Below are positions 13,956 to 53,057 of a stretch of DNA of 64,000 bases, one piece after another. Within the stretch, counting starts at the first letter, position 1. Each line of letters begins with the position of its first letter. The position numbers and the translations under genes are program-made. The notes under the pieces are model-generated. The model had not been told where the DNA came from and did no database searches. It saw nothing but the letters and a program-made list of their open reading frames with translations. Origin of the DNA: Rhizophlyctis rosea (lineage: Eukaryota > Chytridiomycota > Chytridiomycetes > Rhizophlyctidales > Rhizophlyctidaceae); assembly GCA_027596075.1 (NCBI GenBank), contig JADGJC010000049.1, positions 62,001 to 126,000 of the forward strand. The letters run 5' to 3'.

Positions 13956-14346
13956 GTCCTTGGTGGGAATCGAACCCACTTGCGCAACTCCAACCTGAAC
14001 AACCTTCAGTACGTGTTTGCCTCCGCAAACACAGCCCTTCTACTGAGGTGCTCGAACTATGCGAGGGAAACCTTATTTTCTGCCCGTTTTTTTCCTTCGC
14101 CTTCGCTGTGCGTGAGGCCCTATCATCAGTAGATTCGTGTGGGCTCCAAAAGGGTACTGAATTCTGTTCAGATGGAAATTGCACACCGGCCAAGCGAAAC
14201 GATTGTTCTTAGCATCATCCAGAAAAGCCTTGCTGCACGGTTCAACAACTCACACCCGCCCAGGCTGAGTGTGCAGCAGTGTGGCCCTGACCAAGGGTCA
14301 GTTACTGGACTTGGGTCGAACAATCGCGACACTTTCCGACAAGGAC
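13956..14346 (-). ncRNA. tRNA-ended structured RNA element, copy A (391 nt)
   Basis: Read on the minus strand, the element begins GTCCTTGTCGGAAAGTG and ends with a perfect T-arm, GTGGGTTCGATTCCCAC, followed by CAAGGAC. The two ends form a 7-bp acceptor-like stem (GTCCTTG with CAAGGAC). Internal features shared with the other copies are the CTGACC-CTT-GGTCAG hairpin, a GGCCACAC box, a CTGCTGCAC/GTGCAGCA stem (plus-strand 14271-14279 and 14231-14238), the GATGCTAAGAACA box, a GGCCGGTGTGCA box and a GTTTGC..GCAAAC hairpin. It is the longest copy and is not next to an ankyrin gene; it lies convergent to WSS1. No T-run terminator follows the 3' end. An ordinary tRNA is excluded by the roughly 300-nt insert. 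See the first finding for interpretation. Confidence 0.7.
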
Positions 14347-15453
14347 TTGTGATTGCTGTAGGGAAAAGGATGGATGGAAGGTACGAGCATGAAAGCTGTA
14401 CAAAATCATGCTTTCTAATGCATGTACTAATGTGGAAGCTAACTACCTACATCCGCCACGAGCGGAAGAGGATGCAGGCCGAAAAGCGGTGCAAATCACT
14501 AGGAAAGATCCTCTCTTTTCCTGGAGACTGGTCTTGTGTGAGGCGGATGCGCGCACGAGTGTCTTGCCCGGTGGTTCTTGCGTTGGGTATAGTGCTGGTG
14601 CTTGATGGTTATGGGGATGGACGGAGGAGGGCGGCGGCGGTAGGAGGTGAGGAAGGAAGGGGAAGAACGAAGTAAGGAAGGTCGAGCGGGAAGGACCACA
14701 GTAGAGACTTGAATAGGTGTGACCAAGCGGGATGCCCCTTGGGGCCGAAAACCTGCTGGAGCAAAGGAGAATCAGTCCTCGAAAAGAACATGGGTGACGA
14801 ATGGAGAGGAACACCAAGATGCCACGTCAGGTGCCCCAAATAGGCAGCGACCATATTTTTGCGAAGAGGGTAGAGTCGCGTCACCCTTCCAAGGAGGCCT
14901 CATGCGAGACTTACAACCGAGTCCGTCTTCCCCCCGTCGAGATCATGCACGTCGTCTTTATAACCACTCTCCTTTCGGTTGCGTGACACCCCAGTAGAAC
15001 CATCTCACACTCGTCACCCAGAAAGAAAGTAGCGAGGCACTTAACTGATAAACTCCACAGATCTCGTTGGATGGATGGATTGATGGTGTTGTTGATGTTG
15101 GTGACGAGCATGTGACAGTGTCGATGACCAGTCGTCTGATCGTGCAGTGGTGAAAATTGGAGGGGAAACAAGGTGATCGACATTTGGGTCTGACCGCCCA
15201 ACCTTGTTGATCAATAATGTGGCGTATGCTGTGGCCGCGTGGCAATTCTAAGCCGCGTGCCACATATTGGCGCAGTTACAACCCCCAGCTTCGCAGTCTT
15301 CACTGTGCAGACTCCCACATGCAGTCCCACACCATCAACTTCACGATCGCAATTACTCCCGTAGATCAGCCAGTCACATAGCATCGAAATAGCAGAGCAT
15401 AAGATATCAAAGCAAAAAGACGAAACCCACGCTTCAACCATACCATCCGGAGA
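14347..15453. other. Intergenic stretch of about 1.1 kb
   Basis: Holds short opposing frames only. The segment just left of 14380 would be the upstream region of RNA copy A and includes a pyrimidine tract on its strand. An imperfect GGAT/GATT tetranucleotide patch occurs near 15062. The last 100 bases are the promoter and leader of the nucleoporin gene. No gene recognised. Confidence 0.35.
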
Positions 15454-17301
15454 ATGTTTGGCGGGGGATCTACGTTCGGTAAGATTATCAGTGAGACTTT
15501 GTCCGGCTTCACCAACTTACATCGTGCTTCGCTCGTTTAGGTGGGCAGTCCGCGTTCGGGGCACCTAAACCCGCAACCGCGCCAACGTTCGGTGCATTCG
15601 GAACCCCCGCTTCCACACAAGCACAAGGAACCACTTCCTTCGGCTTCGGTGCAACACCCGCCTCACAACCTGCAACCGGTGGGGGCTTTGGTGGGTTTGG
15701 AGCATCCACACAAACGACATCTGCACCAACTTTCGGCGGCTTTGGAGCCACGACGCAACAAACCGCCACGCCCAGCTTCACCGGCTTCGGTCAAACCGCC
15801 ACCACGCAAGCTGGAGCAACATCATCATTTACGGGCTTCGGGGCTTCCGGGCAGCAACAAGCAGGGACGGGCACAACGGGGTTCGGTGGGTTTGGGCAAC
15901 CCAATGCAACAGGGTTCAGTCAAACGTCTCAACCGACTTCTGCGTTTGGAACGGCCGCGACTGCGACACCATTTGGAGGGAAGACGCAGTTGCAGACAGG
16001 ATTTGGCGGGTCGACGTTTGGGGGGCAGACGCAACAAACGCCAGGGTTCGGTGGGTTTGGATCGTCGCTGGGGGCGGGTGGTGGGTTTGGGCAGCAGCAG
16101 CAGCCTGTGGCGGGTGGATTCGGTCAGTCCATGAATGGAATGGGTAAGTTTGGCAAACGTGGTCAAAATAACGCATTTGACTTCTCTTAACGCGTTCTCC
16201 GTATTTCAAAGCGCCAGGACAACCGCAACAGGCCACAATAACCGAACATCTGAGCGTCGCGCAGTCACAATGGGACAAAAGTCACCCTAATTATCAATTC
16301 AAGGTAGAATCTAGCATATTCAAGTCCCATGGCACCGGCTAACAATGCATATCGCAGCATTACTTCTACAACCTCGTGCATCCGGACGAAGTACAACGGT
16401 ACGCCGCACCGAATGATCACAATGCCGAAATATACAGACAAGCAATGATCAACAATCCAGATCCAAAATGGTATGCAATAGTGAGACTGAGATAATTATG
16501 TATTGTCATATCTGACTTTTATGGCCTGAAAGCTTGGTACCGGTTCTGGCATTGGGTTTCGATGACATCAAGAAGCGGACGGAGATCCAAGACAGACAAT
16601 GTCAAGCACACGCCAACAAATTGAAGGTACATCCATAGATGGTTGAAAACCGACCCACTTTGCGGGAACTGATGGAATATTGTGAATCGGTAGGAACTTT
16701 CAACAACATTGAGCACTATCAGAAACAAGCATTACGTGGAGACGCTGCGAGCGATCGAAAGAGCCAAGTTCAAACACCGAGAAATCGTGCAAAAGACCTT
16801 ACAGGTACGCTAACACTCGACCACTGACAACTTTCCCACCCCACCCACTCATATCCCCCACCCACAGCTATACAAACAAATCCAACTCCTCAGACAACGC
16901 GGCTACTCCATCCGGGCGGACGAAGAAATGCTGCGGTCGCGGCTGGAAGCCATGCAACGGGAACTGCAAAAGCCCGCGGCGTTCCGGGGCCGGTTGAATG
17001 AGATTCGGGCGGTTGTGAATCAGTTGAAGGATTCGCAGCGGTTGGCGGGGGGTACGGTGGATGATTTGTATGCTGTGGCGGATGAGAGGACTTTGGAGCT
17101 TATTTATGAGGTGAGGTTTGGCGTACACTTGTTTGGGAGTGGGATTTGGAAACTGATTACTTTTTGTTTCTGTGGTGGCATTAGGCTTTGGGAGGGCAAC
17201 AGGAAGGGTTGATGCGTTTGACGGAGATTGTGCAGAGTGATAAGGGTGATGTGGAGATGATGGCGAGGAAGTATGGGGAGAAACCGCATGGGACGAGTTA
17301 G
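15454..17301 (+). CDS. NUP57: FG nucleoporin Nup54/Nup57
   Basis: Central-channel nucleoporin of the Nup62-Nup54-Nup58 (yeast Nsp1-Nup57-Nup49) complex. Eight exons join in frame: 15454-15478, 15541-16143, 16212-16303, 16358-16470, 16533-16626, 16694-16804, 16868-17110 and 17185-17301, for 465 residues. Residues 1-210 are an FG domain with many GFG, FGG and TFG repeats in a Gly/Ala/Thr/Gln background, which binds karyopherins and forms the permeability barrier. After about residue 215 comes the conserved NPNYQFKHYFYNLVHP-type segment with NNPDP and VPVLALGFDDIKKR, the Nup54 alpha/beta region. The C-terminal half is a heptad-rich coiled coil including YVETLRAIERAKFKHREI, used for trimer assembly. 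The ATG-containing first exon is only 25 nt. Neighbours on the minus strand are unrelated. Confidence 0.93.
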
Positions 17302-17519
17302 TGACCTCGTCTTTGCGAGTTTTTTGTGATATCCACGGATCGAATGATTCCACCTCCTTATCATTCAACACCTTTTACTTCCAACTTCCCACATTATTCC
17401 CCCGCCCCTATGTAAATTGCAAGATGGCAAAATAAGGCCAAAACTTTTGTATAATACATTTGAGAAGAAGATTTTTGACCCTCGTCTCGCTTTGCTAAAC
17501 ATCACCCAGCTCTACAACC

Positions 17520-18252: not shown

Positions 18253-18601
18253 TGTTTCGTAAGTAGGAGGGACGCAGTTGGAGGATACCAGCAGTGGGAA
18301 TGTAGATGGTGGGAATAAAAGGTGGGGAGGGGAAAGGCTGCAAGGGCGGAATTGAATTACGAAGAAACTCGCGTGCCCACGTGGCGTTCTCCAGGTGAAG
18401 AGCCCCAGGACGCGCCCCCCAGACCCTGGCTGGTCCCAGGCCAGGCCCCAATACATAATTTTAGCCACTGAGGTCTTGAGGTCTTCTTTCCATCAAACCG
18501 TTTCCCACGATCTACCAGCACGTTCCCACACCCTTACAATTGCAACGCTCCGTACCCGACTTCTCCCGTCTACCACCAGCCAAAACCTTACTCACACCAC
18601 C
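18253..18601. promoter_or_regulatory. Divergent promoter, thioredoxin / F-box gene
   Basis: A 349-bp spacer between divergent starts, with pyrimidine-rich leaders on both sides (C/T-rich at about 18480-18600 before the F-box ATG). No specific site recognised. Confidence 0.3.
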
Positions 18602-19926
18602 ATGCAACCCACAACAATCCTCCCAGACCTCCTAATCCTAATCTTCGCCCAACCCGACATATCAGTCCCAACTCTCCTCATGTGCGAGCGCGTCTGCAAG
18701 CAGTGGTGCACAATCATCCGCACCAGCAACATGCAGATATGGAAGGCGAAGGTCGTTCGCGGGTTTCCGGAGGGGTGTTTGCCGGTGCTATATGGGGAGG
18801 AGTGTTGGCGGGATGTGGCGACCTTGTGGTGGGCTTGGAGGCGGTTGGGGCGGCGGTTGAAGACACGAAACCGAGTAAAAAAGCCGGAATCAGTTGACGT
18901 AGTGGAGGGAGTGCGGCATTCGGATGATTTGAAAAGGAGGAGTGATGGGCTTGTACGGGATTTGGCAACAGTATATCCCCACCATTCTTCTGCCTCCTGT
19001 CCGTATGGGGTGCGATGGGTTGGCCAGATTTTCGTTGAAGACATGTACGACACAAGCATGTGGATTGATTCTGTGTTCGCCGATCAGATGCGACCACGCG
19101 AGCGATTGAGTCTGCACCTTCCCAAATCACCTACCAACGCCCTGACATCGTCGAATACGAACCACACGTCGATCACTTCGTATACGAGAACCTCAGCACA
19201 TGCAAGGCAGTCGCGTCGCCCACACTCCCTCGCCCATCGTCAGATGGTGATAAAGTTATCTGCGGCTCTATCATGACGGTACGGTGGTGGGAGGACTTGT
19301 CCAAGATGGCACTAGTCTCATTGGGCGAGCAAACATCGTCCGTCAGAATGCGCTCATTTGACTCGGAAACCGTATTCTTCGAGCATAACGAAAGTATATT
19401 GGTGTACGTCCTGCATGACCACCCCGACCAAATCATTCTTGAGCATTTGAACACCGGCCGCCAACTCGCCTCGTACCATCTTCCTGACTCGGAGATAGTA
19501 ATGGATCTGTATATCACCAGATTCAATGTCGTCGTGGAGCTTGCATCAGAAGAGTTGTGGGTCTTTGACTTCAACTTAACCCTCCTCTACAAAATTCCGA
19601 AATCCTTCAACCTAAACATCAACAATCGTCATTTCTTCTGCTCGTACGCAACGGTGGAGGATTGGTTTGTAGTTTTTGACGCACGCGAAGGGAACAAGAG
19701 AGCTTGGATGGTGTTGGACCCGAAGTCTGGAGGTAGAAAGTACGTTATGGTTGACGAGACAATTAGGAGCGTTGGGGAGGACGGATATCACTTCACCACG
19801 ATTGAATATCCTGTTGATGAGGAGGGAAGGAGGACGGGTGCTGGGGGGGTCAATTGCTACTACTGGCGCACTAAGAAGCCTTCTTGGGGATCAGTAGAAA
19901 CAGATCCAACTTATCCGACTTATTAA
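18602..19926 (+). CDS. F-box protein of unknown target
   Basis: The N-terminus, starting MQPTTILPDLLILIFAQPD, carries an F-box (about residues 5-50) with LLMCERVCKQWCTIIRTSN and IW. It should bind Skp1 and act as substrate adaptor of an SCF ubiquitin ligase. The C-terminal half (from about 19110 to the stop at 19924-19926) has alternating hydrophobic strands such as ILVYVLHD, LWVFDFNLTLLYKIP and DWFVVFDAREG, in the style of a beta-propeller or WD-like substrate domain, but no repeat family was recognised. The two halves lie in different frames. An intron is expected between about 18953 and 19110, with candidate donors GTACGG at 18953 and GTATAT at 18971, but no acceptor is convincing. A frameshift remains an alternative. 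Confidence 0.65.
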
Positions 19927-32192: not shown

Positions 32193-32214
32193 CTTGAAGT
32201 TTTCTTGAGTACGA

Positions 32215-32222
32215 TTTTTTTT
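32215..32222 (+). terminator. RNA polymerase III T-run terminator
   Basis: Eight consecutive T about 22 nt past the tRNA-Glu 3' end, followed by further T4 and T6 runs. Confidence 0.85.
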
Positions 32223-40243: not shown

Positions 40244-40369
40244 CAAAATAGCAAGCGAAGCCATGATAAGCCAGGTCAAAATTGATCAAAAGGTCTGAGA
40301 CCACTTCTTTCTACTTGATCTTTCTTCCTGCCTTCCTATTTAGATACTTCCCACACAATCAACCAACAC

Positions 40370-40745
40370 GTTCTTGTCGGAAAGTGCGGGCTTTTGTTCA
40401 ACCCAATCCCAGTATCTGGCCGCAAGGTCAGAGGCCACACTGCTGTACACCTCACCCACCCAAAGGGAGGCATGGTTATTCAGCCGTACAGCAGGCCCGC
40501 TGGAGGATGCTAAGAACAACTGCTCACACTTGGCCGGTGCACATTCCCACCAAACCCCAAATCCAGTATCTAACTAAAGCCTACACAACTCAACTGTACA
40601 AGCCTCACGCAGGAGCGGTGGTGTTTTCCTCGAGTTCCCGTTGAAAACAGTACTGGTTGAAGAGGCTGTGTTTGCGTTCGCAAACCGTGCTGGAGGATGG
40701 TTTTGGTTGGGTTTTGCGCAAGTGGGTTCGATTCCCACCAAGGAC
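40370..40745 (+). ncRNA. tRNA-ended structured RNA element, copy B (376 nt)
   Basis: The best-preserved copy. The acceptor stem GTTCTTG (40370-40376) pairs with CAAGGAC (40739-40745) with one G-U pair. A D-arm-like TC-GGAA-AGTG-CGGG carries the A14, R15, G18 and G19 equivalents. ACCCA (40401-40405) pairs with TGGGT (40708-40712) as an anticodon-stem equivalent. The T-arm is GTGGG-TTCGATT-CCCAC (40722-40738). Internal hairpins are CTGGCC-GCAA-GGTCAG, CTGCTGTAC/GTACAGCAG (40440-40448 with 40486-40494) and GTTTGC-GTTC-GCAAAC. Boxes shared by the family are GGCCACAC, GATGCTAAGAACA and GGCCGGTGCACA. A C/T-rich tract and an A/C-rich leader precede the 5' end, as at fungal Pol II starts, and internal TTTT runs argue against Pol III. 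Confidence 0.75.
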
Positions 40746-40989
40746 ATTCATGACTGTGTGCGAAGTGGATACGGAGTGTGGATCATGTTCTTGAGGGGTT
40801 TTTAGCTTTGGGAATCACTATCACTGTCGTAGCAGATGGTTGTTGCGAGTTTTGGGGGGAAGGGGAAAAGTGAGTTGCTGGGGCTGTTGACGCGGTCGAA
40901 GACATGGGCGTGATAGACGACGAAAGGCGGGTCCTGCCACGTCCCATTTGCGCGAATCTTGTGAAGTTGCCGACGGAAGCTGACACATC

Positions 40990-41367
40990 ATGTGCGGCGC
41001 TCGGCGCTGCATGGTATTTTCAAAATACCACGATGGTGACCTACCTTCTTCCACAAAAGGCATATCACCCCACTTCGATTTCAGTTCTGTTTTGGTATAC
41101 GTTGGAGAGTGGGCATACCAACATGCTGTCGTACTATTATATGTCAACGACTTGGCATATCATGTTCCGAGGGCTGCCCTAGCGAGGGTCGTGCATTTGG
41201 GTCAAGTCGAGATCGTGGAGATTCTGTTGAAGGGTAATATAGGATTAGCGGACAAGCACTTCGCATACGACCGGGGGATGGAAGTTAGGCAGAACAAGAA
41301 GGACCTCAGCGGTGCAGTTTTGGAATGTTTGAAGTTGCTGGAAGGGGCGAATGGACGACCCTGGTAA
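40990..41367 (+). pseudogene. Inverted 3' fragment of an ankyrin-family gene
   Basis: On the plus strand, opposite to all relatives, a frame ends with ALARVVHLGQVEIVEILLKG, NIGLADKHFAYDRGMEV and LLEGANGRPW. These align with the C-terminal ankyrin and tail of paralogues C and D (YALKKAVETANVGIVRTVL; GIGLVDKNKAYRRAKDL; EEAGGKPG). No start or upstream repeats are present. It lies about 245 bp past the 3' end of RNA copy B. Together with the broken gene at 41664-42569 it looks like one unit split and inverted. Confidence 0.65.
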
Positions 41368-41663
41368 TAATGGGAGTTTGTGGGCTTATGTTTGTTTTAG
41401 TTCTCCTCTTTTGTGGGTAATATAAGTTGTTCTTGAGGTAACCGTCGGTATTCTTTGCGTGGTGTGGAGGTGACAAGGCTAGGAATCGAGATAGATATGC
41501 TGCGTGGGGTTCTGGCAAATTAGACTAGCCGCTGTGACGATGATGTGAGAATTCGGTGCTTCCCGAAAGTCATAGGTTAACGTTTGAGACTCTACTGCAC
41601 CAGATTGAGTTGATAGGTCATTCATATATTTACGACAAGGTTTATGACCATATGTTCCGTTCA

Positions 41664-42569
41664 TCAAAAACCCTCAACATCCAAGAATTTGACGATGTCG
41701 ATGTGGCCCTTCCGTGCTGCAATGTACAAGAGAGCCTGTTTCAAGTTCATCGCTTCCGGCGACATATCGGTCCGCAGTTGAACATCAGGGAGGGTCGGAT
41801 CAAATCCAAATGATCGATCCATATAGAGATCGACCATATCCAAACGCCCATTGTGCGCAGCCCACTGAATAACATCAATCATATCCTCCGGCTTCAGATC
41901 CTGTGGCCCTTCTGATCCAAAAACTTTGATAACCTCCGAAAGATCCTTCGCAACGGCCCACCGATACGTATCAATCAACGCGCGTTCGGGGGCATGGGGA
42001 TCATACATCTTCTGTCACGCAAGAGCCCATGCAACATCAGTTTTCGTTACGAGCTTACGAAACGACCGACACGTCGCTCGGATCTTTGGAGCCATGACGC
42101 TCATGCGAGCGATGATGAGGATGATTTCCGGGGGGAGGTAGGGGATGTACCGGTGCAGGAGGGGGTTCGTGTCGATGTTCGGGGATGGGTCGTGATGTTG
42201 AGTGTTGATGGGTGTGAGTGAGAAGGGCGGTTTGGAAGGTTGTTGTTGTTGGGAGGGCAGAGCACCTGCTTCCTCCTCCTCCTCCTCCGCCTTCCGGTTC
42301 TTGTTGCCCCCTCCCACCCCTTCGCCCGTCCCCCGAAGTCCAGCTTCAACTTTCCTCCTCCGAACCCCACACTCCAAATCTTCCGATCCCTCCTCCCATC
42401 CGACAACCCTTTCAAGAAGCCCCTGCAACGTGAGGCTATACGACGGCGTCGACGAAGAAGCGTTTACAGGCAAGGTAGTATGCGGGTATGGAGGTGCGTC
42501 CGTGGAAGCTTGTTGTCGGAATCTGAAGGCGTTCTGACCCATTTTGCGGAGAGAGCGGAGGAAATGCAT
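41664..42569 (-). pseudogene. Ankyrin-family gene B, broken by an in-frame stop and 3' truncation
   Basis: The frame from 42569 encodes a basic/acidic low-complexity leader (MGQNAFRF near its start, poly-Glu and poly-Gln runs). The F-box-like YLPPEIILIIARMSVMAPK follows, then CRSFRKLVTKTDVAWALA, after which TGA occurs at 42015-42017. The same frame continues past it with MYDPHAPERALIDTYRWAVA, DMIDVIQWAAHNGRLDMVDL and ALLYIAARKGHIDIVKFL, which are ankyrin repeats of this family, and stops at 41664. The last repeat and the C-terminal tail are absent and found inverted at 40990-41367. It is probably non-functional, though a short F-box-like protein could still be made. No RNA element was found upstream. 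Confidence 0.7.
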
Positions 42570-43394
42570 TTTGTCTTTTTGACGCCGCGAGAGGAATAGG
42601 ACTAGGTTTCGTTGATATGTTCTTTGCGTTCGAAAAAGACTATTGCCAACCCGCGTTTGCCGATGAGACTACCAAAATGGGATTATGGAGTGGAATTGGC
42701 GGTTTTATGACAAGGAGTCCCAACAACAATTTGCGGCTTCTTGTTCGCCAACTTGTCCCTGTCCGATTGAATCGTCGTTCCACCGTAGAAAACGCCAGTC
42801 TTCACCTCAGGCATGTACTTCGAGAGGCGAACAAACTCGTTCCTGATTTAGAAAGCAAGCTCGCGGGTGGGGCAAAGGACAAGGACAGATGTTGCCGTTC
42901 GGGTTAGTTGGATGTTGAGTGTGTCCGCTACGTGGGTGCAGTGCAGGAAATCTATGCCCACAACCTAGCTATAGTGCAGTCTAGTGCAATGAGCAGGCTG
43001 GTGCCGAGGTATACTTAGGTTTTCGGAAACTCAAAAAAATAGCTGTTCAATGGTCAAGGAAGATTCCAAGTCGGAAAAGGAAGCCAGCACTCTGGCCAGC
43101 GCTTAAAGTTCCTGAATATGGTCGTCCGACCGAGCCGGACAACCCGATTTTGCAAGCCACATCGCACACAGGCGTCTTGTGAAGTGAGGTAGCATTTTGA
43201 CGCTGTGACGCAGGTATTAGTGGCACAAAATAACAGTAACAATCATGGGTCATGGCACAGATGCAAAGCTCATTATGGAAAACCTTCATCTATTCTTGCT
43301 AGCTACTTATTTAGTTCCTGACATCTGTTTCCGCCCCAAAAAGTGCTAACATTGAAATCTACCAGAATGATCCAACTACCACCACCAACTCCTC
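42570..43394. other. Intergenic stretch between ankyrin units B and C
   Basis: Read for a missing RNA copy; no T-arm, acceptor pair or GATGCTAAG box was found. Short frames only. Nothing else recognised. Confidence 0.4.
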
Positions 43395-44575
43395 TCACTC
43401 TCTCTTACGTTTCTTCGAACTCGTTTGTGACGGTCCCGGCCTCCCGCCCGCCTCCTCCAAAACGCCCATCAAAGCCAGGAACTTCCCATCCCGATCCCGA
43501 GTCAACTTTTTCAACTCCTTGGCTCGTCGATACGCCTTGTTGATGTCCCACAACTCATTATTGCCCTGCAACAATGCCCTGACAATCCCCTCATTTGCCG
43601 CTTCGACGGCCTTCTTCAACGCGTAGCTGGGAATGTGGGCGGGCTGTCGATTCACGAAAACCTCGACGATATCTAGATGTTCATTTACAATAGCCTCCGT
43701 CAAAGCCGTCTCAAGAAGCTTCGGCTCATATTGCTGATGATCCAGAAGATAACGCACGACATGAACGTGCCCGTACGCCGACGCCGCCCTGATACCCCCA
43801 CGTCCGTAGTCCGCCTGATTCGGATGTCCTGCGTCCGAACCAGAATGAAGCGGATGCAGTCCGGTTATCTGGTCCGTGCCACCCCGTTCACACAGAAGCC
43901 GAACGATGTCAGGGTACCCTTTCCTTGCGGACGCAAATATGGCCTTTGAGGTATCATGACTGTTTGCCAGGGATGCGGGTTCCGGGTACTTCTGTAACAA
44001 GCCTTCCAGAACTTTCACAAAATTGTGCTTCGCCGCCATTCGTATCACCAAACACTGTTGCCTCTTATTCAGGCCGTCAGGTATACCGCTTCCAAAGGCT
44101 TTGATGACCTGCTCATGTCCCTGGTGCAGAGCCCACAGCCAGGTAGGCCGAAACCCTTCAACGCCAAGCTTATGTTTCGCGTGCCCCCAAGCAACGTCTG
44201 ATGTCCGAATGAGTTCGCGCGTGTGGCGAGAAAGGTACTTGATCTTATGCCCAACATTATTGACTCGGCATATGGCTATGAGAATCTCCGGTGGGATGTT
44301 CAGTAAGGAGAGCGACGTGTCAGTTTGCGTGGCCACAGTCACAGACGCATCGGAGAGCGGGTGCGGGCGCTCGGGTGTACCAGGCAAGGTAGCAACTGGG
44401 GGGAATTGCAACGTTTCGACGGCGGGACTTGACGTGAGGTCGGAGGGTGTTGTTGTTGGACTTGTTAAGTGGGAGTTAAGGGAGGAAAAAGAAGTAGCGT
44501 CGGGTAACAAGGAGGCGGGAACGCATACACATCCCTTTCACTCGTCCAACTTGGTCGCGACTGTTTGTTTCCCAT
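43395..44575 (-). CDS. Ankyrin-family protein C with F-box-like module
   Basis: Two exons proposed: 44529-44575 (MGNKQSRPSWTSERD) and 43395-44460, joined across a 68-nt intron with donor GTATGC, branch-like CTTAAC and acceptor AAG, giving 370 residues. The N-terminus matches paralogue D (MGTKLSRP) and fits N-myristoylation. Then come a Ser/Thr/Pro leader, the F-box-like NIPPEILIAICRVNNVGHKI, a DVAWGHAKHKL link and degenerate ankyrin repeats (AIFASARKGYPDIVRLLCE; GIRAASAYGHVHVVRYLLDH; YALKKAVEAANEGIVRALLQ). The tail is AYRRAKELKK..LEEAGGRPG..KKRKRE. The polybasic KRKRE end is shared with D. RNA copy C begins 424 bp upstream, divergently. Alternative without the intron: start inside exon 2, losing the myristoylation site. 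Confidence 0.78.
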
Positions 44576-44842
44576 GGCAAGGTGTGTTGCACTTGTGTGG
44601 TTGTGTGGAGGGGAACCGAATTGCCAAAGTATCTGGATGAAGGATACGATCACGCTGGTCCTTAGACAAGAAGTCTATCTCACTTGCTATTCATAAAGTT
44701 ACACTGTTGTTAAAAGTGGGTGCGGCACTTGTGCTTGCAAAAGATCTATGGAAACAGTGAGTGGGTGTTTTGAGGCATGAGGCCGGTTTGGTCCTTCACA
44801 AGTCAGTGGGCACGAACGATCGCGATGCCGATCAAGATTGTG

Positions 44843-44857
44843 TGATTCATAATGACA
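44843..44857 (+). promoter_or_regulatory. Shared motif TGANYCAKAATGACA (unit C)
   Basis: Reads TGATTCATAATGACA, 142 bp before the 5' end of RNA copy C and 268 bp upstream of ankyrin gene C. Same order and strand as in units B and D. Confidence 0.6.
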
Positions 44858-44998
44858 CAACTGCGAAGCCACAAAATTCGAAGTGATAACTGTGTGCCGA
44901 TTTTGAGCAGTTGGGCTTTCCCTCTTTCTTTCCTCTTCCAATTCTGTCAGGCCTTTCCATCCTCGACTTTCGCTTGCGCACTGCAACTACCTCAAAAC

Positions 44999-45369
44999 GT
45001 TCTTGTCGGAAAGTGCGGCAATTTGTTTGACCCAACTCCAGTATTGGCTGAATGGTTTTGCAGTGAGAGGCCACACCGCCGTACCCCTCTTGTGGGTATG
45101 GTTTTTCAACCGTACGGCTGGCCGCTGGTTGACGCTAAGAACAAACTGTCTTATGAGGCCGGTGCTCAATTTATCCTAACCCAAACCTAGTACCTGATAT
45201 CAGGGCCTACACAACTCCACTGTACAACCTTGCGCAAGAGCGGAGGTAGTTTTGTCATATTCTTCGCGTGGCAAACGTACAGCTGGAAGGGCCGTGTTTG
45301 CGTTTGCAAACCGTACTGGACGATGCTAAAGGTTGGGTTGCGCAAGTGGGTTCGATTCCCACCAAGGAC
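44999..45369 (+). ncRNA. tRNA-ended structured RNA element, copy C (371 nt)
   Basis: Begins GTTCTTGTCGGAAAGTG and ends CAAGGAC, with T-arm GTGGG-TTCGATT-CCCAC just before. ACCCA near the 5' end pairs with TGGGT in GGTTGGGTTGCGCAAG. The long internal hairpin is GCCGTAC (45078-45084) with GTACGGC (45112-45118), both arms changed relative to copies A, B and D, so base pairing is kept. It has the GGCCACAC and GACGCTAAGAACA boxes and the GTTTGC..GCAAAC hairpin. GGCCGGTGCTCA replaces GGCCGGTGCACA. A C/T-rich tract lies upstream. Confidence 0.72.
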
Positions 45370-46355
45370 AATAAGCTGTGCGCAAAGTGCTATTGAGGCG
45401 GAAGAAGTAAAGCAGAAGGTATCCAGAACATGATGAGCCTTCTGACGATGAAGACTCAACACACCCCCACTTACGGTGTTGCCCCAAAATATCCATATGC
45501 GCACAAAGTTTCCAATCTCTGTCCTAGATTAGAGTGGGCGTCATCACTTCGAATCATTGTAGAAGTAACCACATAGGATGGGTAATGTTAATATCAATTG
45601 TCAATCCGTCCTGATATATCACCATGCTGCTCCAACATCTTTGTGTATGTCGCCCATGTCAAAGTGGACATGGAATACCCAATCATACATCAATCGATTG
45701 CTGATATTGTCTTCTCCCATTGACATAGAATTCGGAAGAAAGGTTGAAGAATCCTTTCCTTTTTCGTACTTTCCCACTGACAGTGAAGCAACGTGATGAA
45801 ACGCAAACACCAACGTTCACCTTTTTCCCACTGACAGTGAAGCAACGTAATGAAACGCAAACACCAACCTTCACCTTTGTCAGCACAATGTTCATCACTT
45901 GCACCACGAACAGTAACCCCGCCTCGTCTTAAAATGTCTAAAGCTATGCAGGTTTCCCAATGATGTTATGCGATCTTGATTGTGTCACTAAATGACTTTC
46001 AAATGATAACGCATAGTAGATCAAACACAGAATGGAACATTTCGTGCGCATGCCGCAGTTGGCGGATAATGTGTGAGATTTACGTCAAGTAGATGCTGAT
46101 GAGTGCGAAGGCTGCAACGCAATCATTCCTCCTTCATTATTGGATTGGTGCTGCAACGGCTCCACCGCGTTAGATGCTGTATAAAGAACCCGAGAAGCAA
46201 GCAATACATGGAAGTTTTCTGTTGCGTGGGACAGGCTGCTTGCCATCGTATATTTCTGCTGAACCAAGTACAAGCAAAGCCCCTTCGAGCGGCCCAAAAG
46301 TGCGACATATCTGATCCTTCCGTTCCGTCGCCGTCGGCGCAAAGTGCCGTGCCCT
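45370..46355. other. Spacer between RNA copy C and ankyrin gene D
   Basis: About 1 kb with the direct repeat listed separately and no gene. The last part is the 3' region of ankyrin gene D. Confidence 0.4.
45768..45885. repeat. Two-copy direct repeat of about 56 bp
   Basis: The unit includes TTTCCCACTGACAGTGAAGC, AACG(T/A)GATGAAACGC and AAACACCAAC(G/C)TTCACCT. The two copies differ at only a few bases. Each has an internal CACTGACAGTG inverted repeat. It lies between RNA copy C and ankyrin gene D. Confidence 0.8.
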
Positions 46356-47564
46356 TCACTCCCTCTTGCGCTTCCTCGGGTTCGGCGGCGTTGCTCCCGG
46401 CTTCCCACCCGCCTCTTCCAAAGCAACCAAGATAGCCGAGAATTTCGGAATCAAATGCCGGATATTCTTCTTTCTCAAGTCCTTCGCTCGTCGGTACGCC
46501 TTGTTCTTGTCAACCAAGCCAATGCCCCCATTCAACACCGTCCTGACGATTCCCACATTGGCAGTCTCCACAGCCTTCTTCAACGCATACGAAGGAAACC
46601 GAAACGACGTCCGATTCACGAAAATCTCCACAACATCCTGACGTTCATTCACAATCGCTTCCGTGCAAGCCGCTTCAAGAACTCGCGGGATATACGTCTG
46701 ATGCTCCAAGAGATACCTCACAACCTCAGCATGCCCGTACGCCGACGCCGCCCTGATACCACCCAACCCATATTCGCCCCGCATGGGCTCTCCCTCATCC
46801 GAAGCCGACAGAAGCGGGAATACGCCCGTAACATTGTCCTTGCCGCCCCGTCCGCACAGAAGCCGTACAATCTCAATGTACCCTTTCCGTGCAGCGACAA
46901 AAATTGCCCTCAATGCCTCTGCACTCAACGCCCCACATAGTGGCAGAGGATGGGTGTGCAAGTACCCTTGCAGGACCTTCACGTAATTGAACCTTGCCGC
47001 CATGCGTATCACCAAACATTGCTCCCTGGCGTACAGCGCGGACGGTACGTTCCTTCCGAGTCCTTTGATGACCTCGTCGTGGTCTTGTTTTAGAGCCCAT
47101 AACCATGTCAGACGAAGCCCCTCTGTAGCCAACTTGTGCTGCGCGTGCCCCCAAGCAACGTCTGCCGTCCGGATGAGCTTTCGCGTGTCGCGACAGAGGT
47201 ATTTGATCTTGTGTCCGATGTTGCTGACGCGACATATGTTGATGAGGATTTCGGGTGGCACGTCTGGGAGAAGGAGCGGGGTATCGGTTTGCGTGCCTGT
47301 GGAGACTGTTGAACGAGACTGGGATGACGTGGATCCACCGACAGAGGCGAGGACTGTGTGAGACTGTGTCGCTGGGAAAGCGGGTGAGACTGGGAAATTG
47401 GTGGGTAGTGGTGGAGCGGGATGGAAGAAGGGGGTTGAGGTTGTGGGGGTTGAGGTGGTGGGAATTGACGGGGTGGGAATTGACGGGGTGGGGAGAGAGT
47501 GAGTGGAAGTGGGTTTAGCGGGGCCGCCTCTTGCGCCGTTGGGTCGCGAGAGTTTGGTTCCCAT
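46356..47564 (-). CDS. Ankyrin-family protein D with F-box-like module
   Basis: The one intact, intronless member, 402 residues. It starts MGTKLSRPNGARGG (N-myristoylation pattern, Gly2 and Ser6). A Pro/Ser/Thr-rich leader has a PTPSIPTPSIP-type repeat. The F-box-like DVPPEILINICRVSNIGHKIKY spans residues about 110-135, then TADVAWGHAQHKLATEG. Ankyrin-type repeats follow: LTWLWALKQDHDEVIKGLG, AIFVAARKGYIEIVRLLCG, GIRAASAYGHAEVVRYLLEH, YALKKAVETANVGIVRTVL. The tail ends NPRKRKRE. It is about 60 percent similar to C by eye. RNA copy D begins 359 bp upstream on the other strand. A membrane-tethered ubiquitin adaptor is a reasonable guess. Only the domain assignment is supported. Confidence 0.85.
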   Translation of the reverse strand: MGTKLSRPNGARGGPAKPTSTHSLPTPSIPTPSIPTTSTPTTSTPFFHPAPPLPTNFPVSPAFPATQSHTVLASVGGSTSSQSRSTVSTGTQTDTPLLLPDVPPEILINICRVSNIGHKIKYLCRDTRKLIRTADVAWGHAQHKLATEGLRLTWLWALKQDHDEVIKGLGRNVPSALYAREQCLVIRMAARFNYVKVLQGYLHTHPLPLCGALSAEALRAIFVAARKGYIEIVRLLCGRGGKDNVTGVFPLLSASDEGEPMRGEYGLGGIRAASAYGHAEVVRYLLEHQTYIPRVLEAACTEAIVNERQDVVEIFVNRTSFRFPSYALKKAVETANVGIVRTVLNGGIGLVDKNKAYRRAKDLRKKNIRHLIPKFSAILVALEEAGGKPGATPPNPRKRKRE

Positions 47565-47728
47565 TGCAGGTATATGACAGAGATGTTTGATGTGACTTGG
47601 ATGGTGGTTATGCAGATGAGACTAGATCAGAGGGGAGGTTGTGGTGGGGGGTGATTTGCCAGTGATTTGCGTGGTGATTGAATGGTCCTGGCTCCTGACT
47701 CCTGGCTGTGCCAGGGTCCATTTGTCAG

Positions 47729-47743
47729 TGAGTCAGAATGACA
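47729..47743 (+). promoter_or_regulatory. Shared motif TGANYCAKAATGACA (unit D)
   Basis: Reads TGAGTCAGAATGACA, 165 bp upstream of ankyrin gene D and 180 bp before RNA copy D. Confidence 0.6.
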
Positions 47744-47922
47744 TTTGCATCCCCACAAATGCTGACACAGCACAGAGGCACAGTGAAGCAAAAAGCGAAG
47801 TTGATTGCCCAGCGATCCTGAACTTCTTTGGCGTATTTGTCCCTTGCTTCCCTCTCCTCCTTCACTTCCTTCTCTTCCAGACTTCGCCAATCACTCCAAT
47901 CTCTCATACACCACACAAACAA

Positions 47923-48239
47923 GTTCTTGTCGGAAAGTGGGAGCAACTATTCAACCCAAATCCAGTTACTGACCCATGGTCGGGGCCACACTGCTGCACA
48001 CTCGGCCTTCTCAAACCCGTGCAGCGCGGTTTTGCTGGACGATGCTAAGAACAGTAGGCATGCGCTTGGCCGGTGCACAAACCATCTTGACCTGACACCG
48101 GTGCCTTACAAAGCCGGAACACCTCGTCTAAGCACCTGGAGCTCAGCTACCTTGGAGGGGCTAGTTTGCTTTCGCAAACTGTGCTGGTGTATGTGAAAGA
48201 TGTATCGTACTCAAAGTGGGTTCGACGCCCACCAAGAAC
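47923..48239 (+). ncRNA. tRNA-ended structured RNA element, copy D (317 nt)
   Basis: The acceptor stem is GTTCTTG with CAAGAAC. The 3' arm has changed from CAAGGAC to CAAGAAC, exactly restoring a Watson-Crick pair against the T of GTTCTTG, a compensatory change. The T-arm has G-TTCGACG-CC in the loop region, still pairing GTGGG with CCCAC. Internal CTGCTGCAC (47991-47999) pairs with GTGCAGC (48019-48025), CTGACC-CAT-GGTCGG forms a hairpin, and the GATGCTAAGAACA and GGCCGGTGCACA boxes are intact. The anticodon-like stem is lost (TATCGTACTC replaces GGTTGGGT). Confidence 0.72.
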
Positions 48240-48890
48240 ATTGATAAGTCGTGCTGTGTCGCGTTGTTGGTGCAGTCTTGGAGTAGGTGACGCTTTTGGA
48301 GCAATTGATATATAATGATACGCATTGCACTTTCCGATGTATCAAAATATGGGAACTATTCTTGTCATCAAGAGAATGTGGAATTGATGTCACCACCGCT
48401 TCTCCTTTCCTATTCACATCACCGTGGCCGGTGTGGCCCTTTCGTACTTAACTTTCTTCAACAGACCTCCATCCCTACGTGTCATTTGCCAATCTGTCAG
48501 CTCCAAGTCGCAAGAAGAAAAATGGTGGGAGATGACAGTGGGGCCTTGGCGCAACAGGCGCCGATATCGTGCCCCCATTCGCACAATCGTAATAGAAAGT
48601 GCGGCCTGTGAACCATACATTTGGTGGAATTGAATGTGCATCCCTTCAATCAAATCCTGAATTTGTGCATGGCGCGCATTGCCCTACGTCTCTCAAACCA
48701 AAGCATAACGTGACGCCGATTTGTATTCCCTTAAAATCATACAACACAGATCGGCGCAGAGCATGAGTTCCAGGCCTCGCCTTAAATGACATCCGCACTG
48801 TCCACCATCACCTTCGCAGTTTTCTCACTGCTTTATACGCTTGGTGACTTCAAGACTGTGAACATGATGCCCTTAGTCTCCCTCTCCTCC
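48240..48890. other. Spacer of about 650 bp, nothing recognised
   Basis: Short overlapping frames only. It leads into the exportin-derived fragment at about 48892. Confidence 0.35.
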
Positions 48891-48891
48891 C

Positions 48892-49085
48892 TATGCTGCA
48901 ACCCCCATCCCCAACGCCCGTCATCTTCCCTCAAGACGAGCCGCCTGCACAAAGGACCCAAAGTCGTTGACCAGTGCATTCAAAAGGTCAGCACAGTCGT
49001 GCGGATCCTGGATGCGACGCACAGTTAAGTTACGCTTCAGAAACAGAAACATCCAACTCAGCAACGACAAATTCACACTCTTAGT
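48892..49085 (-). pseudogene. Duplicated 3' end of the exportin-6 gene
   Basis: Minus-strand translation gives DPHDCADLLNALVNDFG and FVQAARLEGR before a stop. This matches the last exon of the XPO6 gene at 53475 (DPHNCADLLNTLVNDFG; FVQAARVEGR). Similarity at the DNA level continues into the 3' flank (TATGCTGCAACCCCCATCCCC) and weakly into the preceding intron, so it is a segmental copy, not a retrocopy. It abuts a Brr2-like fragment on the same strand. Confidence 0.8.
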
Positions 49086-49099
49086 TTCTGAGCCATTAA

Positions 49100-50120
49100 C
49101 CATTATTGATCACTATGCGTGCATAGATGCGAGGGTTGCGATTGATTATGCTGTGTGTTCTTCAACATACGCACATACGAATACTCCAACCACTACACCG
49201 CCTCCTCCTACCGGACCGTACCCACACAATCTCCGCATTCAAGTTGTCCGCCATCGTCCTCATGAACTGGCTCCCAATCGGCAACTGTTGGTTCAACAAC
49301 GACAAGTACTACTGCAGCTCCTGTTGCGTCGTGATGATGATGCCTTCACCGTGCTTATTGGAACTGCGGCCGACGGGCACGTCCTAATATCCGCAGTATA
49401 TTCAAATCGATTTATCGTCCCTTCTCCGGGTTGTACATCTGCATCCAATTGATGACGATCATGGGTTAACACCCCACGCCAACGTCGCAGTCGACACCTT
49501 TGATATGCCCATCAGCAAGCAACTCCTTCACAAATGTCCGTTCCGCACGGGACATCCCAGTATGATGAAAAGAGCGTTCATATGACAAGATGTCCTGTAA
49601 ATGACCTTGACCGTAGCTACTTCCTCCTGAGAATCGTCCAACTAACGGCATCCAACGGCAAGATCTGACCGACCGTTTCCTTCTCGACCGCCATGTCCCG
49701 GATTGCCTGCGCCGTCTTGGTCGTCTCCTTCCGTGGATGCTCAAATACAAGCACCTGCCTCTTCCCTGCCTCGTCCATCAATTACTTATACACAATCTCG
49801 TTCATCAGCGCCAAGCGCTTCTCGATTATACCGATGTGCTTACACCGCAAGGAAGAAAGCTGTTGTCGAAGAAGAATGACCCGTGTCGGATTCACGCGCA
49901 TGAAGTGGCCAACATCGACATAGTTGGGAAGTATAACACTGAGACCAACCAACCGAACCGCTTCCCGATTTTGCCGGATCTGACGAATAGTACGGCTAAC
50001 AACGCTTTCCAAAATCGGACCACGTTCATCGTGAAGCAAGTGGATGTCGTCGATGATGATGCAAGCGCACGCGGTTGGTGTACGGCCGACCCGTAGCTGA
50101 CTTCTCAACCTGGCAAACAC
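49100..50120 (-). pseudogene. Decayed fragment of a Brr2-like Ski2 helicase
   Basis: Reading down from 50120 on the minus strand, consecutive pieces match the first helicase cassette of spliceosomal Brr2. They are IIIDDIHLLHDERGPILES (motif II, normally DEIH), VRLVGLSVILPNYVDV (motif III, normally SATLPNY), VLVFEHPRKETTKTAQAIRDM, DILSYERSFHHTGMSRAERT, STATLAWG (frame-shifted), MYNPEKG, YLSLLNQQLPIGSQ, MADNLNAEI and WLEYSYVRMLKNT. Between them lie in-frame stops and shifts, and motifs II and III are altered, so no active helicase can be made. It ends next to the exportin-6 copy. A functional BRR2 must exist elsewhere in the genome. Confidence 0.85.
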
Positions 50121-50520
50121 ATACAGCTATAAAGGCGGTGTGTAGTCAACTGTGTCTCTGACTTCATGAACGCTCAACCCTTCCGTAATCAAAATGTGAG
50201 AAAAATCACCTATCCACTCGAGGAGCCTAACATCTCCTTCATCAACGTCAAGAACCACAAAACACTTTCCATGCGATCATTCAAACATACATGTTACGAT
50301 GGTACTGATGTATTTGAATAGTAACAATCAACATGCATCCTAACCGATCACTCCTTCCCCAATCCACACACTCCCCATCAAACCTTCCCTCCGCACAACT
50401 CCAACAACTCCATCGCTCTACCATGGTCCAAACTCCCCGTCCGTTCCCAAACCCCCTTCGCAATCCGATACGCCTTCTGCTTGACCCCCAAATCGAAACT
50501 CCTTCCCACCAAACAAATCC
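50121..50520. other. Spacer between Brr2 remnant and ankyrin gene E
   Basis: 400 bp, including the 3' region of gene E. No feature seen. Confidence 0.35.
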
Positions 50521-52194
50521 TTAGAATCTCCTCCCGTCCCAACTCTGTGGCCTATAAACAACCTTCGGTTTATACCGCAACCCCCTCTCCGAAAAAGCTT
50601 GAAACACCCCAACCTTCCCTCCCGTAACCGCCAACTCCATGGCCTCCTTGACGACTTGCTCAGAATACGTCTGTAACGTCAAAAGAAGCTTCACCACTTC
50701 CGTATGACCGTAGAAACCAGCCGACACAACAGCGGGACAAAGTTCTTCTCCCGCATTGTCCAACCAGCCGGTACGCGCCGGGACCACCCATCCGGGAGAA
50801 AAGCGCGTAAGATCCCTTCCACCCCGCGAATGCAACTCCCGAATACATCTCACATTCCCTTCCCGCCCAGCAATCAAAAGCGCATGCGACATGAGTAATT
50901 GGAAGGATCCCACACCCGCGTCGTCGTCCGGAGGAGGTCGAAAATGCTTGATGGAGCCGGCCCAATCGAGGTGAGCTGCCAACAGGATCGTAGCGGGAGG
51001 GGCAACTGTTTTGATGTTAGGAGTGTAAACGAACCCGGTCCAGGCTTGCAGCTGCTCATCCGTCATCGGTTCGTATCGTCCCAGAATGATGTGGCCGACG
51101 AGAGCCTTCAGAACCTCCAAATGAAACCCTTGAAATGCCCATACGAACGCATACCAAACCCCCAAAGTCTCACACATGATCCGTCCCTGGGCCCAAATGA
51201 TATCTTCTTTCTTGATCTCCCTTCTCGTTGCTTTACACATTGCCCGGATGTGGAATGCAGTGATCGGATGTGCCCATCTAGCAATTGGCCTGATGAGCTC
51301 GACCGGGAGTTTGGACGTGAAATCCCAAAGAGGGTTTTGCGGTTTCGCATCGTCGACGCAGAGGTAACCCTTCATATGAGCAGCGCGGGCAGCGGCGTCC
51401 TCGTTTTTGGTTGTGTTGCATTGGGGACAGTATGCTTCCTCCATTGAGTGGCTTGTTGAACAACCATAGCATACCCAGCCATCCGCGAAACCTTTACGGG
51501 TGGAACATGCAACACAAACGGACGAAGAACCGCGATTAGGGACCATGCAGGCATTGCAGGTCCAGGCTTTTGCAGGCCGACGGTTGCTTGGAATGATGAT
51601 ATGATAGAAGTGGGATTTTTTCAGTTTTGTTTCGACGTCACGCACTGGACTCGGTGGGGCAGGATCTTGATTGTGGACGTGATGGGCAGTCCGCTCGGAA
51701 AAGCATTCGGCACACACCCGCTTAGGCAGCAGAGGCACGATGATGAGCTCCAACAGACAATCTTGGTGACCGAAAGCGTCGCAGCAATCGCATGGACATT
51801 TGGGTTTGGATAGGGAGAAGGCAAGGTGACACAGCGCACAGAGGTCTGCCTGTTGACTGAGAACAGCGGTCGTAGGTTCGGTTGGTATCGCGGACAGTGC
51901 AGATGAGACAAACGGTGCATATATCAATTCCAGATGTTGGTCCTTCAAGTGCTCAACCAAACGCGCTTCCGAGTGAAAGAACCATTTACACCGAGAACAA
52001 GTATAGGAAAATCCGGTGCGAACGATGAGACTGGGTGGTACGGAGATGTCGACGGAGTTCCAGCTTTCGTCAGAAAGTGAAGGAGAAGCTCTCGGTGTGG
52101 GAACTGGCGGTACGAACTGGGTCGGGTTGGGCGTCGACAACTGTTGCGGATAGATTTGTTCAGAGGGTTGCGGCCCTTGCTCCACCGTCCACAT
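50521..52194 (-). CDS. Ankyrin-family protein E with C2H2, PHD/RING-like and two RanBP2-type zinc fingers
   Basis: Intronless, 557 residues, stop at 50521. Residues about 60-85 form a C2H2-like finger (YTCSRCKWFFHSEARLVEHL). Residues about 115-165 form a Cys/His cluster (CALCHLAFSLSKPKCPCDCC, then GHQDCL and CAECF) in a PHD/RING style. Two RanBP2-type fingers follow, starting WTCNACMVPNRGSS and GWVCYGCSTSHSM. The F-box-like KLPVELIRPIARWAHPITAF and EDIIWAQGRI align with the PPEI and DVAWGHA segments of C and D. The C-terminus has degenerate ankyrin repeats (ALLIAGREGNVRCIRELHSRG; AVVSAGFYGHTEVVKLLLTL). It lacks the MGxxxS start and the KRKRE tail. RNA copy E lies 537 bp upstream, divergently. 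RanBP2-type fingers bind ubiquitin or RNA, so this paralogue may have a different partner. Confidence 0.85.
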   Translation of the reverse strand: MWTVEQGPQPSEQIYPQQLSTPNPTQFVPPVPTPRASPSLSDESWNSVDISVPPSLIVRTGFSYTCSRCKWFFHSEARLVEHLKDQHLELIYAPFVSSALSAIPTEPTTAVLSQQADLCALCHLAFSLSKPKCPCDCCDAFGHQDCLLELIIVPLLPKRVCAECFSERTAHHVHNQDPAPPSPVRDVETKLKKSHFYHIIIPSNRRPAKAWTCNACMVPNRGSSSVCVACSTRKGFADGWVCYGCSTSHSMEEAYCPQCNTTKNEDAAARAAHMKGYLCVDDAKPQNPLWDFTSKLPVELIRPIARWAHPITAFHIRAMCKATRREIKKEDIIWAQGRIMCETLGVWYAFVWAFQGFHLEVLKALVGHIILGRYEPMTDEQLQAWTGFVYTPNIKTVAPPATILLAAHLDWAGSIKHFRPPPDDDAGVGSFQLLMSHALLIAGREGNVRCIRELHSRGGRDLTRFSPGWVVPARTGWLDNAGEELCPAVVSAGFYGHTEVVKLLLTLQTYSEQVVKEAMELAVTGGKVGVFQAFSERGLRYKPKVVYRPQSWDGRRF

Positions 52195-52581
52195 TTTGTG
52201 ATATTGTACAGGTACTTTTTACTGTGAGCGCGTTCTATGGATGGGGGATCTAATTGGAGGATGAAGTGAGAGATTTGGAAGGGGCGTGTAATGTGTTGGT
52301 GACTTCGGTGGGCGCGAAACACGGGAGGATCACTTGACTGATGCACAATTCAGGTTTTGACGTTGACAAAGTAGGGTATGGCGTAGGAGATGAGACTATT
52401 CACGGGGTGTCACTATTGTACCTTTAGGTTCGCAAAACTGTAAGAATTTACAGATGGACGGCGTGATGAACACTGAACCAACCACTGAACAATGCACAAG
52501 AGAACAAGAAAGGTTAAGGTGCTGACATCATCGGGTGGAGAACACTGGATCCAACATGTGTGCCAGCCAGGATTGATATAG

Positions 52582-52596
52582 TGTCATTATGGGTCA
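52582..52596 (-). promoter_or_regulatory. Shared motif TGANYCAKAATGACA (unit E, reversed)
   Basis: On the minus strand it reads TGACCCATAATGACA, 135 bp before RNA copy E. It is the only one of the four in reverse orientation relative to the RNA. Confidence 0.5.
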
Positions 52597-52730
52597 CTGC
52601 TACTCCACAACACATCGGGTCGCGCTTCAAACCCGTTATCAAAACCAATCCCACCCAATCTTTCCTCTCCAATTTCTCTTCACCCAACAGATCATCCGAT
52701 CTGCACATTCACATTCACCAATTCAAGCAA

Positions 52731-53057
52731 GTCCTTGTCGGAGGGGACCCTCTCATCCAACCCGGAAACCCAGTTCACTGAACACATTAGTGGGCACCGT
52801 ACCCGTGTTCAGGTCGGCGGTCTAGGGACCATTGCCTGGCCGTGCTGTAAAAGGCACTGGGGGCGGGAAGGATGAGTGCGTGAGCCAACGGCCGGTGTGC
52901 AACTGTCGTCGAAGCGGAGTCTGGTCGTTGATCTTGACAATCAAATGGGCACCGTACCTAGTCAAGGTCAGGCACCTTAGGGACCATTGCCTAGGTGTTA
53001 GACTGGACAATGCCTAGAAGGCTGTTTGCATAAGTGGGTTCGACTCCCACCAAGGAC
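52731..53057 (+). ncRNA. tRNA-ended structured RNA element, copy E (327 nt, diverged)
   Basis: The acceptor stem GTCCTTG pairs perfectly with CAAGGAC. The T-arm pairs GTGGG with CCCAC around TTCGACT. The D-arm start TC-GGAG changes with TCC at the other side, keeping G-C pairs. The interior is largely replaced: the GGCCGGTGTGCA box remains, but the GGCCACAC and GATGCTAAGAACA boxes are gone. About 60 bp is present twice (GGGCACCGTAC ... TAGGGACCATTGCCT near 52793-52850 and 52949-53000). It is either a decayed copy or a remodelled variant. Confidence 0.6.

Follow-up and report, generated by a model that had tools for sequence, protein, structure and literature searches.

A family of predicted structured RNAs closed by a tRNA-like acceptor and T-arm half in the chytrid Rhizophlyctis rosea

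RNA copies in the window and across the genome

Bases 62001-126000 of contig C431 of the chytrid fungus Rhizophlyctis rosea, a stretch of 64,000 nucleotides hereafter called the window, hold five copies (A to E) of a candidate structured RNA gene whose two ends pair into a tRNA-like acceptor stem next to a T-arm. The contig is 189,176 bases long and belongs to a genome of 44.1 Mb in 634 contigs. A preliminary description of the window, made from the sequence alone, had placed the five copies, and all of them were recovered at the coordinates and on the strands it gave, with lengths of 391, 376, 371, 317 and 327 nt. The copies and their parts are as follows (sequence classes and modules are described below).

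13956-14346, minus strand: RNA copy A, class 1, two arms with one module each (fold z-score -6.46, pairing, covariation)
14340-14346, 13963-13979 and 13956-13962, minus strand: copy A, 5' acceptor strand, T-arm and 3' acceptor strand
40290-40369, plus strand: upstream flank of copy B, 70% C+T at -80 to -40 and then C/A-rich, possibly promoter-like
40370-40745, plus strand: RNA copy B, class 1 (fold z-score -4.55, pairing, covariation)
40370-40376, plus strand: copy B, 5' acceptor strand GTTCTTG (7/7 pairs with 40739-40745)
40377-40537, plus strand: copy B, arm in the D-arm slot with consensus closing helix TCGG/CCGG (helices 2-9), holding module 1 with boxes ACCCAA and GATGCTAAG
40538-40720, plus strand: copy B, arm in the anticodon-arm slot with module 2 inside (helices 10-19; one-base uncertainty of register)
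40722-40738, plus strand: copy B, T-arm GTGGG-TTCGATT-CCCAC (5/5 pairs)
40739-40745, plus strand: copy B, 3' acceptor strand CAAGGAC (pairing)
44999-45369, plus strand: RNA copy C, class 1, T-arm at 45346-45362 (pairing, covariation; fold z-score -1.85)
47923-48239, plus strand: RNA copy D, class 1, T-arm at 48216-48232 (acceptor GTTCTTG/CAAGAAC; fold z-score only -0.55)
52731-53057, plus strand: RNA copy E, class 3, T-arm at 53034-53050, with a different module that by eye is repeated twice (fold z-score -2.76)

Further copies were collected by DNA and pattern searches of the genome followed by pairing of both ends, and the comparison set thus consists of paralogues from one genome of one species. 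Only the best candidates were scored in these searches, so that every copy number given here is a lower bound. We tabulated at least 28 copies on 19 contigs, plus one multi-module array. They fall into four sequence classes, with 12 copies in class 1 (A-D, C1, C36, C142, C23, C533, C367, C212 and C149), 11 in class 2, two in class 3 (E and C334) and three in class 4, and the RNAs range from about 200 to 400 nt across the family. A stretch of about 66 kb on C431 holds eight of the places, the array among them, and brings members of classes 1, 2 and 3 together. A T-arm pattern allowing up to two mismatches was found at 26 places in the 44.1 Mb, compared to none for a reversed control, and a DNA search with a single class 2 RNA as query returned at least 11 places, all 11 of them inside a tRNA-like frame on DNA similarity only. 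The five copies listed in the preliminary description thus belong to a larger, dispersed, low-copy family, beyond what chance would produce.

Three places were excluded from the 28 before any count was made: C614 (L056), which has a T-arm and no convincing 5' partner; C542 (L055), which is class 4-like by eye and has two acceptor mismatches; and the array, which contains a run of N. Other places with a weak 5' pattern were not adopted, for example C5, C28, C121, C286, C520, C595 and C442:235645, where no 3' partner was found, and C178 and C201. One 28-base pattern had no exact match in bacterial and archaeal genomes. A viral origin was discarded, the single exact viral match (L068) being an ordinary phage tRNA-Arg.

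Fold, tRNA-like frame and modules

Covariation tests covered class 1 and the class 2 modules. In class 1 (12 sequences, 87 pairs), 90.8% of cells were paired, compared to 36-44% when partners were slid, and 59 cells carried double changes against 24.4 ± 4.2 after shuffling; on all five measures of covariation, none of 500 shuffles was as high. In the class 2 modules (19 sequences, 30 pairs), 92.2% of cells were paired against 32-44% with slid partners, and double-change cells numbered 26 against 8.7 ± 2.1, with none of 500 shuffles as high. Because the tested structures had been derived from the same rows, we also derived structures from random halves of the sequences and counted them on the other halves in 20 repeats, a design that, with related sequences in both halves, falls short of a phylogenetic test such as R-scape. 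In class 1, 86% of cells in the other half were paired (lowest 81%) compared to 41% with slid partners, and double changes averaged 23.1 versus 8.8; the class 2 modules gave 90% (lowest 85%) versus 36%, and 15.4 versus 3.3. A structure taken from half of the sequences predicts the other half, which indicates a real RNA structure under selection. The covariation proposed in the preliminary description is supported, as most measures exceed both the shuffled and the slid controls and the signal holds out of sample. Folding z-scores were below -2 in 19 of the 28 copies, with a median of -2.5.

The tRNA-like frame is paired almost throughout. Acceptor pairs are formed at 191 of 196 positions over the 28 copies and T-stem pairs at all 140, and each of the five window copies has both the 7-bp acceptor-like ends (7/7 paired) and the T-arm (stem 5/5 paired) first proposed for them. 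The compensatory acceptor GTTCTTG/CAAGAAC of copy D also held, and in copies B and C the acceptor GTTCTTG/CAAGGAC contains a single G-U pair. Position 5 of the acceptor is T-A in 14 copies, A-T in 12, T-G in one and unpaired in one, and position 2 of the T-stem is T-A in 25, C-G in two and T-G in one. The T-loop reads TTCGAYT or TTCAATT in 24/28. After the acceptor, an exact CATAA follows in 11 of the 28 copies, with near variants in others, and CCA is not encoded directly after base 73.

Two further tRNA-like elements of the preliminary description fared less well. The motif TC-GGAA-AGTG, taken as the start of a D-arm, instead pairs with CACTTGGCCGG as the 5' strand of class 1 consensus helices 2 and 3. 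An anticodon-like stem ACCCA/TGGGT was poorly supported, with 46 of 67 cells paired (69%) compared to 90.8% for the consensus structure, and was not adopted. An exact TGGGT precedes the T-arm in only three of the 12 class 1 copies (B, C and C367), where such a stem is possible, and in the folds of A and B most of the box falls in internal loops and its CA is paired.

As predicted from these comparisons, the fold is a multi-way junction that retains the acceptor/T-arm half of a tRNA and holds long arms in the D-arm slot, the anticodon-arm slot or both. The class 1 consensus runs from the acceptor directly into the D-slot arm (TCGG/CCGG), directly into the anticodon-slot arm and, after one base, into the T-arm; the junction register is shifted by one base in the minimum-energy fold of B and unshifted in that of A. 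The frame is plainest in C20, where a single module fills the D slot and the anticodon slot is taken by a 4-bp hairpin (TGCG-CTTA-CGCA), followed by the T-arm. By eye, class 2a has only the first arm, with up to two stacked modules in it, whereas class 1 has related modules in both arms, with boxes ACCCAA and GATGCTAAG that are better kept in the first arm; the two-arm layout of class 3 is likewise read by eye only. Modules measure about 100 nt and number one, two or, in the array, at least three per RNA. The array lies on the minus strand within a tRNA-like frame and ends near C431:132388 (in L065, C431:126001-135900). At least three tandem modules of about 110 nt can be read in it, two of them identical and the first diverged, with a small hairpin between modules, an interruption of 89 N and, by eye, the class 1 boxes repeated. 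Module helices covary, and some internal boxes are nearly fixed in sequence. Eight class 2 RNAs have two modules. In four of them (C84b, C135, C442a and C442b), no module in the set is closer than the sister within that RNA; the sister ranks second in C46a and between 3 and 11 in C84a, C124 and C431r. This closeness fits with repeated duplication or conversion within a gene.

Several observations weigh against the structural reading. Two of the five covariation measures in class 2 are not clearly above the shuffles, which were as high in 453/500 cases for further pair types and in 25/500 for both-side-changed pairs, and the shuffle controls ignore the relatedness of the sequences. Nine of the 28 copies do not attain a folding z-score of -2, namely, C (-1.85), D (-0.55), C46a (-0.01), C124 (-0.74), C442b (-0.97), C431s (+0.37) and the three class 4 copies (-0.5 to -1.1). 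The T-loop departs from TTCGAYT/TTCAATT in four copies (D, C23, C20 and C431s), the acceptor of C23 is only 5/7 paired, the base after the acceptor stem is variable (C, A or T), and the T-arm is unformed in the minimum-energy fold of copy E. By sequence comparison, the structure of the RNA family is well supported, as are the conservation of the fold and the duplication of its modules.

Transcription and nature of the RNAs

The flanks of the copies share a composition that suggests a transcription unit. Averaged over the 28 copies, positions -80 to -40 are 71% C+T, positions -40 to -1 contain 8% G and 70% A+C, and the first 40 nt downstream are 65% G+T; in 10,000 random draws of 28 positions each, taken from the window and the other loci retrieved, no set was as extreme on any of the four flank measures. 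Single copies deviate, as C+T at -80 to -40 does not exceed 0.53 in A, C367, C212 and C334. Runs of four T (T4) were compared with three tRNA genes of the same genome serving as RNA polymerase III controls, one of which is an ordinary tRNA-Glu (CTC) in the window at 32121-32193, with its T-run downstream. T4 occurs 6, 35 and 20 nt downstream of these genes, whereas only two of the 28 RNA copies have T4 within 40 nt, and eight have none within 400 nt downstream. In addition, T4 is found inside 16 of the copies and T5 inside five. PMC9703631 describes a pyrimidine-rich stretch ahead of the start site in fungal polymerase II core promoters, and the external flank of the copies resembles it. Taken together, flanks and T-runs make transcription by RNA polymerase II more likely than by polymerase III, although this assignment is uncertain.

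Synthesis by RNA polymerase III, directed like that of SCR1 or RPR1 by internal A and B boxes, here within the tRNA-like ends, is the alternative that survives best, and we regard it as rather unlikely. Few stretches are as constant across the four classes as GGTTCGAYTCC, which also fits a polymerase III B box, and by eye class 1 contains an A-box-like TCGGAAAGTG. The corresponding stretch differs in classes 2 and 4, and the external promoter-like flank and the downstream and internal T-runs described above also speak against polymerase III. Two observations leave the assignment to polymerase II uncertain: the fit of the T-arm to a B box, and a comparison in which the 5' ends of 19 long open reading frames (ORFs), many of whose starts are probably internal exons, did not show the flank signature.

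We consider it probable that the copies are structured non-coding RNA genes of a new family, in which a tRNA-like handle sets the ends and the modules act as repeated binding platforms. Each gene would be transcribed from its own upstream promoter. The tRNA-like half would serve as a handle for RNase P, tRNase Z, the CCA-adding enzyme or protective proteins, which may define and stabilize the ends of the RNA, as precedented by MALAT1 and NEAT1 (PMC12941219). The modules may each bind a protein or other partner, and the whole RNA could then work as a multivalent scaffold or decoy. The core of the preliminary description, a covarying RNA family of few copies closed by a tRNA-like acceptor/T-arm half, is retained in this explanation.

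A second alternative, already raised in the preliminary description, is a non-autonomous retroposon resembling a short interspersed element (SINE), the structure of which would be kept so that a helper reverse transcriptase recognizes the transcript. The repeats are indeed dispersed and low in copy number, and SINEs of Aspergillus fumigatus (PMC5063351) offer a fungal precedent for low copy number and a size of 140-493 bp. The best evidence for this alternative is the pair E/C334, which is identical at 306 of 327 aligned bases: similarity begins at the first acceptor base, is weak upstream (z 1.2 over 60 nt, 2.1 over 120 nt) and fades past the 3' end (downstream z 3.4 and 2.1). Three more pairs (B/C367, C460/C20 and C84b/C442a) have upstream z below 3, the last two with downstream z of 3.2-4.8. 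A shared segment running from the 5' end into a 3' trailer is the expected trace of RNA copying; the E/C334 pattern would be left either by RNA-mediated copying or by strong constraint on an old duplicate.

Other pairs point the other way, as C46a/C442b and C84a/C431r share both flanks, for roughly 40-115 nt on the upstream side and 60-80 nt on the downstream side, a pattern that DNA duplication would be expected to leave. Target-site duplications, which the preliminary description had also failed to see, were not found over the 28 copies, the longest shared word averaging 4.2 nt in a copy's own flanks and 4.5 nt in mismatched pairs. Inspection by eye showed neither a poly(A) or simple-repeat tail directly 3' of the copies nor a tRNA-like head with a D-arm at their 5' end; the promoter-like flanks lie outside the element, and compensatory evolution is seen between diverged copies. 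The polymerase III features of a SINE are thus divided, with a B-box-like T-arm present, no visible tail and no T4 within 40 nt in 26/28, and so is the evidence from flanks, with E/C334 and others lacking upstream similarity and several pairs sharing theirs. AfuSINE2 is comparable in being a low-copy, dispersed, tRNA-related repeat of 140-493 bp, and its copies show target duplications of 4-14 bp along with features of a polymerase III promoter (PMC5063351); in the chytrid RNAs, by contrast, such duplications were not found, both ends join into the tRNA half, and the structure covaries. We therefore regard a SINE origin as weakened and distinctly unlikely, although flanks of the E/C334 type fit it.

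In bacterial transfer-messenger RNA (tmRNA), the acceptor/T half of a tRNA closes a long structured insert, and this general plan, to which the preliminary description had drawn attention, is shared by the chytrid RNAs. The further step, a eukaryotic tmRNA-like RNA charged with an amino acid and active in ribosome rescue, is very improbable. The sole tmRNA match in Rfam, to beta_tmRNA, is at chance level (E 0.45, with 16.1 bits where the cut-off is 84), and ARAGORN reports no tmRNA in the window or the scanned loci. No common reading frame for a tag was seen in the class 1 alignment, in which the longest internal ATG frame ranges from 0 to 67 codons and length differences are not multiples of three. 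No fixed base follows the acceptor, and aminoacylation would therefore be unlikely; this variable base 73 and the absent D-loop argue against amino-acid charging. The chytrid RNAs further differ from bacterial tmRNA in the repeated modules of their insert and in residing in a nuclear fungal genome. Rfam 15 at its gathering score returned only one match in the window, the tRNA-Glu at 32121, and at E up to 1 over nine loci (ten of the 28 copies' places, or candidates) it returned one chance-level match. Finally, tRNA genes with giant structured introns, also once considered for these copies, can be dismissed almost entirely: the acceptor and T-arm are canonical, but the D-arm and D-loop are absent, the anticodon slot holds a 4-bp hairpin with a 4-nt loop (C20), nothing (class 2a, by eye) or a long arm (class 1), and neither ARAGORN nor Rfam reports a tRNA at the copies.

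To return to a structured RNA family with a tRNA-like handle, its closest parallel may be mascRNA and menRNA of vertebrates. These likewise carry a tRNA-like acceptor/T half, the stack of which is present in the chytrid copies, in a non-tRNA RNA made by polymerase II, an enzyme only presumed here. According to one recent paper (PMC12941219), the MALAT1 and NEAT1 ends are processed by RNase P, RNase Z and the CCA-adding enzyme, and these two are the only long non-coding RNAs it names for such a tRNA-half handle. There, mascRNA is a small tRNA-like piece that a very long RNA releases at its 3' end, whereas the chytrid half closes the whole 200-400-nt RNA, whose arms, unlike mascRNA, are built of duplicated modules. 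Candidate structured RNAs of fungi (PMC8216456, PMC5640933; main text) are likewise conserved and structured, and a term search of that main text did not find chytrid, Rhizophlyctis, tRNA-like or tmRNA.

More tentatively, and with somewhat less than even confidence, the family may represent a eukaryotic RNA chassis: a nuclear, polymerase II-made RNA closed by a tRNA half, with both ends matured by tRNA enzymes and with modules of about 100 nt added, lost or homogenized in the D and anticodon slots to tune multivalent binding. A described counterpart of such a chassis, or a chytrid RNA of this kind, was not found among the literature matches listed, which do not cover subscription literature. 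Bacteria and phages are well known for large, ornate non-coding RNAs with covarying structures, but such RNAs are, to our knowledge, rare in eukaryotic nuclei. Here, one fungus offers 28 diverged paralogues, a clear structural model and modules fitting either of two slots of the tRNA frame, so that the duplication of RNA modules, apparently together with their concerted evolution, can be followed in nature within a single gene. If the copies are transcribed, reuse of a tRNA half as an end-processing handle in a non-tRNA RNA becomes directly testable.

Neighbouring genes and other features of the window

A minus-strand cluster at 38862-52194 contains four diverged ankyrin or zinc-ribbon F-box-like ORFs (38862-40040, 43395-44510, 46356-47564 and 50521-52194), two of which are 62% identical. 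Each ORF start lies 330-540 bp from one RNA copy, B, C, D or E, in divergent orientation. A protein search with one cluster ORF gave at least 70 matches genome-wide (78 of 122 candidates scored), and among the matches listed only those on C431 and around C442b adjoin RNA copies. The Pfam F-box-like family gave at least 148 matches (150 of 379 candidates scored); among those listed, two (C135 and window 37088) lie within about 5 kb of a copy, roughly the number expected from density. Matches of 56-57 aa to another F-box-like ORF of the window (18395-19276) occur at L053:3270-3437 and L042:3790-3960, near two of the three class 4 copies, which runs counter to that expectation. We read the ankyrin/F-box association as possible co-duplication in one cluster.

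A 125-bp piece, 92% identical between its two occurrences, lies downstream of D (48889-49012) and of E (53442-53566). Elsewhere in the window, a short C-rich tract of low complexity with CCCCG/CCCCGCGCCG repeats occupies 32774-32882. Positions 62001-64000 show a strong purine skew (AT skew 0.33, GC skew 0.19), and within them 63000-63600 has, by eye, the look of coiled-coil coding sequence.

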